Shown here one piece after another: positions 15,437-16,745 of a stretch of 64,000 nt of DNA. Within the stretch, counting starts at the first letter, position 1. Every line of letters starts with the position of its first letter. Origin of the DNA: Sphingobacteriia bacterium. Lineage in GTDB: Bacteria; Bacteroidota; Bacteroidia; Chitinophagales; Chitinophagaceae. Both the position numbers and the translations under genes were made by a program. Location: NCBI GenBank assembly GCA_017304675.1, contig JAFKLS010000017.1, forward strand, positions 434,001 to 498,000. Direction: 5' to 3'. The notes under the pieces were generated by a model. The model made no database searches. It saw only the letters and a list, made by a program, of their open reading frames with translations, and was not told the origin of the DNA.

Positions 15437-15856
15437 TTATTTCGCTGCAAAAATAAAACTACCCGTCCACACATTTGATGAAGAAGATAAAGATGTTACT
15501 GTTACAGTACACTTACAACTTACAGAACCTGTTGGAATATTAGTGATCGTAAAATTATTGGCAGCATTAGCATTACTTACAGTAGTTGAGAAGAATGTAA
15601 CATTAGAAGTTTGATTTGTTGCTGCAACATCAATCCTCACTCCATTAGAAGGCATGGTAGAAGTAACCGTTACTGTTAACGGCAATCCTGAGCCTAAAGC
15701 TTGTGCAGGCAGGTTACTTCCTGCAGCGGGGTTTAAAGTAACAGCAAGAGTAGCCTCTGTTGTTGAAGAGCCACCGCCACTCGCACCTTTTCCACAACTA
15801 AGCGTAACAACTGAAATAGAAATTAAAGCAATACATAAAAAATAAATCCTTCGCAT
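15437..15856 (-). CDS. Hypothetical lipoprotein
   Basis: A 139-residue protein with a lipoprotein signal: hydrophobic stretch then LSC at about 19-21, followed by GKGASGGGSS. The glycine/serine-rich spacer right after the lipid cysteine is common in Bacteroidota lipoproteins. The mature part is threonine- and valine-rich, with an immunoglobulin-like look (LPLTVTVTSTMPSNGVRIDV) and two cysteines close together (SCKC). No family is recognised. It lies downstream of the Lrp-type regulator on the same strand. Confidence 0.6.
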   Translation of the reverse strand: MRRIYFLCIALISISVVTLSCGKGASGGGSSTTEATLAVTLNPAAGSNLPAQALGSGLPLTVTVTSTMPSNGVRIDVAATNQTSNVTFFSTTVSNANAANNFTITNIPTGSVSCKCTVTVTSLSSSSNVWTGSFIFAAK

Positions 15857-15916: not shown

Positions 15917-16381
15917 CTAAATTACCCTCACGGTTCTGTTAATACTCTCTTCAAGAGATATTATTGTTTCTGTTCTGGCTATCCCTTTTACACTTTGAAG
16001 TTTATCGTGCAACACTTCCCTTAACTGCTCTATATCCTTACATACAATCTCAGCAAACATACTATAGTTGCCCGTAGTATAATTTAGCCTTACTATTTCT
16101 GCTATTTCATTCAATTGCTTGGCAACATTATCATATAAAGAACTTTTTTCAAGATAAATGCCAATAAAAGCCACCACATCGTATCCAAGCATCTTAAAAT
16201 CTACCGAGAGTTTTTTCCCTTTAACAAGTTTTTGTTCTTCCAATTTCTTCATGCGTACATGAATGGTTCCGCCGGAAACAAATAATTTTTTGCCCAGGTC
16301 TGCGTAAGAAATATCTGCATCTTCAATCATTGCCTGAATAATCTGCAGATCCAATTTGTCAATATTCAATGGAAGTGGCAT
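15917..16381 (-). CDS. Lrp/AsnC family transcriptional regulator
   Basis: A 154-residue regulator with an N-terminal helix-turn-helix (LDLQIIQAMIEDADISYADLG and VSGGTIHVRMKKLEEQKLVKG) and a C-terminal RAM ligand-binding domain (about 65-145) including the VRLNYTTGNYSMFAEIVCKD stretch. Such proteins sense amino acids and control their metabolism. The ATG at 16381 is preferred; a TTG three codons upstream is in frame. A promoter-like region lies upstream, back to back with the tRNA-like RNA gene. Confidence 0.9.
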   Translation of the reverse strand: MPLPLNIDKLDLQIIQAMIEDADISYADLGKKLFVSGGTIHVRMKKLEEQKLVKGKKLSVDFKMLGYDVVAFIGIYLEKSSLYDNVAKQLNEIAEIVRLNYTTGNYSMFAEIVCKDIEQLREVLHDKLQSVKGIARTETIISLEESINRTVRVI

Positions 16382-16491: not shown

Positions 16492-16499
16492 TAATCTTG
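16492..16499 (+). promoter_or_regulatory. Promoter-like element before the tRNA-like RNA
   Basis: TAATCTTG matches TAnnTTTG in all but one fixed position and lies 30 bases before the predicted mature 5' end, a normal leader length for a processed tRNA-type transcript. Confidence 0.35.
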
Positions 16500-16529
16500 T
16501 ATTGCAAAACAAAAACAAGTTCTTTACAC

Positions 16530-16691
16530 TGTGGGGTGATGAAATTTTTGGCAGACATGCCCTCTCGTCTCGGGGGTGGGGACCAAAGGATAAACGCAGC
16601 ATAGAGCCTCCTGCAAAGGAGACCGGGGTTGACCACCGGACTTTGTACTGTAGCTAACTTCCCCGTGTAGGTTCGACTCCTACCCCTACAG
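16530..16691 (+). ncRNA. Unusual 162-nt tRNA-like RNA with an oversized variable region
   Basis: The ends fold as a tRNA. Acceptor: TGTGGGG (16530-16536) with CCCTACA (16684-16690), seven pairs with one G-U, then G at 16691. D arm: ATG (16539-16541) with CAT (16556-16558), a 14-base loop containing GG and closely resembling tRNA-Leu. T arm: GTAGG, loop TTCGACT, CCTAC (16667-16683). The anticodon-position arm is CCCTC/GGGGG with loop TCGTCTC, which lacks U33 and gives no Leu anticodon. The variable region is about 88 nt: GGGGA/TCCCC (16578-16582, 16660-16664) encloses CAAAG/CTTTG (16584-16588, 16641-16645) and two hairpins (CTCCT-GCAA-AGGAG at 16608-16621; CCGGGG-TTGA-CC-A-CCGG at 16623-16639). 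No CCA is encoded. No tag frame is seen, and it is too short for tmRNA. The gene for the tRNA methylase TrmB follows. Confidence 0.6.
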
Positions 16692-16710
16692 CTTTTTTCT
16701 CAGTGTGTTG

Positions 16711-16745
16711 AAGCCCATAAAGTTTTTACTTTGAGGGCTTTTTTA
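16711..16745 (+). terminator. Terminator after the tRNA-like RNA
   Basis: AAGCCC (16711-16716) pairs with GGGCTT (16735-16740); inside, AAAGT (16719-16723) pairs with ACTTT (16728-16732) around TTTT. A T run follows to about 16744. It separates the RNA gene from trmB. Confidence 0.75.

Follow-up and report, generated by a model that had tools for sequence, protein, structure and literature searches.

Within the window, by which we mean the whole stretch of 64,000 nucleotides that was analysed, a gene for a tRNA-like RNA lies divergent from a regulator gene of the Lrp/AsnC family and is followed by an intrinsic terminator (Table 1). The preliminary description of this locus had placed the RNA at 16530-16691, which spans tRNA positions 1-73; the molecule is of class II, and its variable arm carries an insert of 80 nt. 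Its stem-by-stem account of the outer shell holds, in that the acceptor, D and T arms are as it read them and their helices covary in relatives. The elbow features by which a cloverleaf is recognised are all found, namely U8, A14, the GG of the D loop, TTC and the T arm. The D stem is ATG/CAT in the window copy and ACG/CGT in relatives, and the anticodon stem of the window copy has 5 bp and closes a 7-nt loop, TCGTCTC. Above its GGGG/CCCC base the variable arm continues into an inner 3-bp helix and then a conserved internal loop (GGATAAA/GCTAAC), with a covarying apical stem at the tip and hairpins that differ by lineage. Among long copies, the motif GGGTTGACCAC within the insert is kept in 74 of 105 cellular and 54 of 54 phage ones. 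Given that other tRNAs of the same genome also encode C74, mostly without the remaining CCA, the 3' end of the RNA can be regarded as an ordinary tRNA end. An 8-bp acceptor with C73 was rejected, since the other tRNAs of the genome encode C74 alone and position -1 is not kept as a pairing partner. In copies L022, L028 and L393 the D loop is extended by a small inserted hairpin.

Table 1. Features of the RNA locus, with positions counted from the first nucleotide of the window.
Feature	Position	Strand	Remarks
asnC-like regulator gene, Lrp/AsnC family	15917-16381	-	divergent from the RNA
TAATCTTG	16492-16499	+	candidate, read by eye; resembles Bacteroidota -7 element TAnnTTTG
leader GTTCTTTACA	16519-16528	+	resembles boxA antitermination element of rRNA operons
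position -1	16529		
tRNA-like RNA	16530-16692	+	tRNA positions 1-74; covariance model R1, 125 bits
U1	16530		
acceptor stem, 5' strand TGTGGGG	16530-16536	+	
D arm, Leu-like	16539-16558	+	3-bp stem ATG/CAT; GG at 16550-16551
anticodon arm CCCTC-TCGTCTC-GGGGG	16560-16576	+	anticodon GTC at 16567-16569; C38 at 16571
giant variable arm	16578-16664	+	87 nt; covariation and length variation among copies
variable-arm stem GGGG/CCCC	16578-16581 / 16661-16664		
GGGTTGACCAC motif in insert	16626-16636	+	
T arm GTAGG-TTCGACT-CCTAC	16667-16683	+	5-bp stem
acceptor stem, 3' strand CCCTACA	16684-16690	+	7 bp with 16530-16536
G73	16691		
encoded C74	16692		
intrinsic terminator	16710-16741	+	hairpin, then T run; z -2.6

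The RNA is a member of a real and widespread family that is absent from Rfam. Full-length homologs were found by BLASTN in 27 of 61 relatives, and among 28 aligned copies 16 pairs show two-sided compensating changes. When a covariance model covering the shell together with the base of the variable arm (R1) was searched in 395 Bacteroidota genomes, the scores were two-peaked, with members at 68 bits or more and ordinary tRNA-Leu at 60 bits or less. The RNA shares its D arm and class II layout with tRNA-Leu and differs from it in anticodon, discriminator (G73) and insert; as the background match of the model, tRNA-Leu is the probable ancestor. The matches listed from a DNA pattern scan of GTDB genomes include Chitinophaga, Pedobacter, Mucilaginibacter, Dyadobacter, Spirosoma, Hymenobacter, Algoriphagus, Cyclobacterium, Fulvivirga, Saprospiraceae and Ignavibacteriales, and R1 confirms 103 copies in at least 78 of these listed loci. 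Across the 103-copy alignment 96.7% of helix cells are paired, a value that leans towards the model to which the alignment was fitted, although slid controls nonetheless drop to 50-60%; 412 two-sided changes were counted compared with 111 in shuffles, and none of 500 shuffles matches the observed covariation. The fold energy of the window sequence alone is unremarkable (z -1.4), and it is the comparison across relatives, not single-sequence fold energy, that leads us to count the structure as real.

At least 170 distinct cellular copies were found across Bacteroidota, together with 68 distinct phage copies among the loci listed, and two or three copies stand in tandem at 35 of 137 loci. The giant variable region that had first drawn attention to the RNA is present here but is not an essential trait of the family, cellular copies being 110-212 nt long and phage copies 92-173 nt. 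No Rfam 15 family reaches its gathering threshold on the RNA, ARAGORN misses it and calls no tmRNA here, and there is no earlier description of it in the open-access literature, a scope outside which most subscription journals fall. The proposal of a stand-alone, undescribed tRNA-mimic RNA is borne out by a covarying structure and the lack of an Rfam match, with compensating changes spread far past close strains. Its dismissal of tmRNA, an intron and 4.5S RNA also stands. The RNA is like tmRNA in its tRNA-like end, long insert and stand-alone gene, but it has no tag frame, its D and anticodon arms are complete, and the third acceptor pair is U3:A70 in 168 of 170 cellular copies (A3:U70 in 2 of 170) rather than the G3:U70 of alanine. 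The features expected under an intron reading are not found. A tRNA-Sec or allo-tRNA, with an acceptor of 8 or 9 bp, was likewise rejected, since position -1 is C, T or A and the extra pair is not kept.

Ahead of the RNA no sigma-70 promoter was found, and what remains of the promoter-like element reported earlier is a candidate of Bacteroidota type, TAATCTTG, recognised by eye only. The boxA-like leader, GTTCTTTACA, suggests antitermination of the RNA gene, and similar leader sequence precedes many relatives' copies. The terminator hairpin is real. The suggested link to TrmB was not upheld: TrmB adjoins the RNA at only 7 of 30 loci, the adjacency is incidental and a partnership was rejected, the conserved neighbour instead being AsnC. 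An AsnC-type gene lies divergent upstream of the RNA at nearly all of the 30 loci, and at 96 of the 131 loci with at least 700 nt visible upstream AsnC is divergent at a distance of 124-252 nt, out to Ignavibacteriales; exceptions cluster in Saprospiraceae-like and Cyclobacteriaceae lineages. In the window the product of this gene scores 159 bits with the AsnC model NF008384, compared with at most 66 bits for other Lrp types, and matches E. coli AsnC (2CG4) with E 2e-31, the next best match being 2e-16. Because 159 bits is under the 227-bit equivalog cut-off of NF008384, we refer to the neighbour as AsnC-type rather than as proven AsnC. In E. coli, AsnC answers to asparagine and asnC is divergent from asnA. 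The present arrangement resembles that pair in that an AsnC-type regulator is divergent from a gene that would provide asparagine, but the partner here is an RNA whereas there it is asparagine synthetase. None of gatCAB, asnS, aspS, asnA and asnB is linked near the RNA, where there is one weak GlnS-like match, and AsnC does not adjoin asnA at the loci looked at in genomes with AsnA. A small lipoprotein-like ORF behind asnC (15437-15856) is also kept beside asnC in several relatives.

The positions that are held constant across the family report on what the RNA may be recognised by. We tallied 170 distinct cellular copies, 167 of them with a parsed anticodon loop. The acceptor begins with U1:A72 in 169/170 and G2:C71 in 170/170 copies, and U8, G73 and C74 are each found in 170/170. 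Within the parsed loops G34 is found in 160/167, and U35, C36 and C38 are each found in 167/167, a constancy fixed by the search pattern for part of the cellular sample, as for the phage sample, and shown equally by 73 copies gathered by BLAST and the model, free of that pattern. The seven copies without G34 have C34 or U34 and glutamate-like anticodons (CUC in 5 and UUC in 2), Hymenobacter being among them. Position 37 is a pyrimidine in 163/167 copies and position 33 is U in 126/167, so that the U33 and purine 37 of a canonical elongator tRNA are not found together as a family rule, U33 being missing in the window copy and in 41/167. The absent U33 was therefore correctly reported for the window copy but does not characterise the family, of which pyrimidine 37 is the steadier oddity. 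A pyrimidine at this position is generally foreign to decoding tRNAs.

The loop had been described as giving no Leu anticodon; that it lacks a usable identity is not supported. Five strong determinants of aspartate identity are recognised, G73, G34, U35, C36 and C38 (PMC9976931), and all five are present in the RNA, whose loop holds GUC and, with G73, the full aspartate set. At the end of the acceptor, U1:A72 is the pair needed by bacterial GatCAB and amidotransferases (PMC4206432, PMC9976931), and it stands in place of the G1:C72 that is strictly conserved in bacterial tRNA-Asp and aids AspRS (PMC9976931). The tRNA-Asp of the same genome combines G1:C72 with the loop CTGTCAC, and its tRNA-Asn combines U1:A72 with the loop CTGTTAA; by comparison with these two, the RNA is a chimera in which a loop of aspartate type is joined to an acceptor of asparagine type. 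Of the glutamate-like anticodons, CUC occurs in L095, L096, L130, L138 and L165 and UUC in L105 and L152. L095 belongs to genome G222, where AsnA is present and is perhaps relaxing selection, and L105 to G372, which has no asparagine synthetase over cut-off.

We compared 40 genomes with the RNA and 40 without it, scoring GatCAB through its GatB subunit alone. GatB was found in 40/40 genomes that have the RNA, and within the window's family in 20/20 genomes with it and 0/10 without it. AsnRS is present in 80/80 genomes and GlnRS in 61/80, and given that these 61 have both synthetases, GatCAB would have no known role in their translation. Among the 61, the RNA is found in 36/41 genomes with GatB and in 0/20 without GatB; the five with GatB and GlnRS but no RNA (G048, G072, G080, G149 and G235) count against the explanation that we prefer, which predicts a relaxed AspRS for them. 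On the AsnRS tree at least 14 changes between presence and absence of the RNA are counted, and in phylogenetically independent pairs of genomes with GlnRS, GatB tracks it in 5-6 of 6 and opposes it in none (p 0.03-0.06), event counts that are rough because the tree is a quick one and AsnRS falls into two deep types. These two very deep types of AsnRS, seen among the 80 genomes from Bacteroidota and neighbours, hint at an old replacement.

The asparagine synthetases show a less simple distribution. AsnA occurs in 3/40 genomes with the RNA and 5/40 without it. Either AsnA or an AsnB-like protein over the TIGR01536 cut-off is present in 33/40 genomes with the RNA, and for these the RNA is not proven to be the sole route to asparagine. 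The strict form of the idea, that genomes with the RNA have no asparagine synthetase, was discarded, as most have an AsnB-like protein over that cut-off. Judged by the shape of the TIGR01536 match, however, E. coli-type AsnB is found in 10/40 genomes without the RNA and 0/40 with it. True AsnB (PRK09431 over cut-off) is present in four genomes without the RNA (G032, G034, G062 and G178), whereas the four genomes with the RNA that were tested have only longer AsnB-like proteins, which pass TIGR01536 and fail the PRK09431 cut-off. Seven genomes that have the RNA and AsnRS (G022, G026, G037, G206, G246, G305 and G372) have neither AsnA nor AsnB over cut-off.

Loss of the RNA can be followed at conserved loci. 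Of the members of the window's family without the RNA, 9/11 also lack AsnC, and in the two that keep it, G032 and G034, true AsnB is present (893 and 928 bits); more generally, most genomes in which AsnC is kept but the RNA is lost encode AsnA or true AsnB. In G034, AsnC and TrmB are divergent at a spacing of 118 nt, compared with 389 nt in the window, and the interval contains no RNA; it is the same locus after loss of the RNA. Genomes G222 and G128 belong to one genus, and both have AsnA. In G222 the RNA, with the anticodon CUC, lies beside AsnC; in G128 AsnC and the same neighbour gene are present, but the RNA is not.

The genome of the window encodes one AspRS. The enzymes of P. aeruginosa and mycobacteria, which carry the label Asp/Asn in the PDB, show His in RRDHGG and Gly in RPEG. 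At those two places the AspRS of this genome has Phe and no Gly, and it is most like the Elizabethkingia enzyme. This sequence favours a discriminating AspRS, with which a GatCAB substrate would need an Asp-type loop.

The RNA is also carried by phages. The same pattern matches at least 120 viral contigs in IMG/VR, and 79 of the 80 viral loci listed (L376-L455) score at least 65 bits with the model, 68 of them distinct. GUC, pyrimidine 37, C38 and G73-C74 are found in 68/68 of these distinct copies and U1:A72 in 66/68. The neighbours are clearly of phage type on four of five contigs tested (DNA polymerase, terminase, portal, endolysin). Several copies sit in large tRNA arrays, and at least four arrays that hold the RNA also have a separate GUC tRNA-Asp (L420, L429, L430 and L393). 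Forms of 92-97 nt have an ordinary class II arm, showing the giant insert to be dispensable, and ARAGORN calls the short forms tRNA-Asp. Neither AsnC nor GatB was found next to the phage copies, and the named phages of INPHARED gave no full-length match. Of seven phage tRNA-Asn examined, five have G1:C72 (L430, L393, L405, L394 and L388), whereas the RNA keeps U1:A72. Such a G1:C72 would hide the phage tRNA-Asn from GatCAB, host tRNA-Asn having U1:A72. Genes for tmRNA are present on contigs that carry the RNA, at L430:1363-1749, L393:1028-1383 and L454:3960-4294.

Taken together, the RNA is probably a non-decoding tRNA dedicated to AspRS- and GatCAB-dependent asparagine synthesis under AsnC control. 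From sequence and co-occurrence we infer that the RNA is transcribed and that AspRS would read the aspartate set of the anticodon loop, with G73, and attach aspartate; GatCAB would then read U1:A72 and amidate the bound aspartate to asparagine. Pyrimidine 37 and the outsized variable arm may bar the RNA, or nearly so, from decoding, and since it could not, or could hardly, enter the ribosome, asparagine would be kept off aspartate codons. The asparagine would be freed by hydrolysis or another step to feed AsnRS, and AsnC may set the dose by controlling the divergent RNA gene, as its E. coli relative controls the neighbouring asnA. Against this explanation, seven cellular copies have C34 or U34, the G1:C72 that AspRS favours in tRNA-Asp is replaced by U1:A72, and linkage to an Lrp-type gene, taken alone, could reflect only transcriptional control.

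That linkage would suit an RNA that acts as a regulator, titrating or sensing AspRS, GatCAB or the charged amino acid and so reporting Asn/Asp status, with AsnC as a transcriptional switch and a relaxed AspRS supporting the synthesis of asparagine on tRNA-Asn. The genome's own tRNA-Asn could serve GatCAB through its U1:A72, and the kept GGGTTGACCAC motif suggests a second binding partner. We nevertheless regard this as unlikely, since the AspRS lacks the His/Gly pair of the known non-discriminating enzymes, and a pure titrant need neither retain every element for charging and amidation nor ride in phage tRNA arrays without AsnC. Those same elements, the absence of decoding features and an insert that is left unexplained are compatible with the carriage of Asp or Asn to a non-translational acceptor, such as the cell envelope, a peptide or a lipid, rather than to free asparagine, in the manner of the staphylococcal non-proteinogenic tRNA-Gly. 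However, no transferase gene is linked, AsnC is the sole linked partner and the RNA co-occurs with genes of asparagine metabolism, so we think such a role quite doubtful.

We consider it improbable that the RNA functions in translation as a class II tRNA, reading Asp codons or a recoded site. The GUC anticodon, the U33 of 126/167 cellular copies, the phage arrays and the ARAGORN calls on short phage forms would all fit, but pyrimidine 37 prevails in both cellular (163/167) and phage (68/68) copies, the genome encodes a normal tRNA-Asp, as do several of the phage arrays in question, U1:A72 would attract GatCAB and so lead to misincorporation of Asn, and the co-loss with GatB would go unexplained. 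A role as a decoy that sequesters tRNA-cleaving toxins or nucleases could account for phage carriage and a tRNA-Asp-like loop; as it leaves the AsnC linkage, the co-occurrence with GatB and U1:A72 unaccounted for, we consider it very improbable.

If the RNA is indeed a dedicated carrier for asparagine synthesis, it would have partial parallels elsewhere. Staphylococcus has a non-proteinogenic tRNA-Gly that is used for peptidoglycan and kept off the ribosome, and so is likewise a tRNA reserved for biosynthesis; it differs in amino acid, pathway and architecture, and is without the giant arm. The tRNA-like pseudo-tRNA of Bacillus cereus (cited in PMC8007984) is also thought not to decode; it and the RNA are unrelated in sequence and different in identity. 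A further parallel is the synthesis of asparagine on tRNA-Asn by a relaxed AspRS and GatCAB in Deinococcus, Thermus and Bdellovibrio (PMC4206432). With that route the RNA would share the presence of GatCAB alongside AsnRS and GlnRS, a U1:A72 substrate and the making of asparagine on an RNA. There, however, it is the decoding tRNA-Asn that is charged, by an AspRS that is relaxed or present as a second enzyme, whereas here a separate RNA with an Asp-type loop would suit an ordinary AspRS, and this RNA seems not to decode.

A survey from 2014 recorded 67 genera, Bacteroidetes included, that keep GatCAB despite having AsnRS and GlnRS, and synthesis on tRNA-Asn was only proposed or assumed for them (PMC4206432). 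Why such bacteria retain GatCAB has been an open question, to which the RNA offers a direct and testable answer for Bacteroidota. For genome annotation, the gene is near-universal in GatCAB-bearing Chitinophagaceae, Sphingobacteriaceae and Cytophagales relatives, yet it goes unseen by ARAGORN and Rfam. On balance we lean, if narrowly, towards the fuller picture of a non-decoding asparagine carrier in much of Bacteroidota, AsnC-controlled where others keep asnA, supplied by phages too through their tRNA arrays and with an additional function for its conserved insert. If this is the case, then an RNA gene would stand under an asparagine-type regulator and phages would bring their own copies of it, and an RNA adaptor would have been copied, barred from decoding and handed over to metabolism, making a tRNA into a metabolic cofactor.
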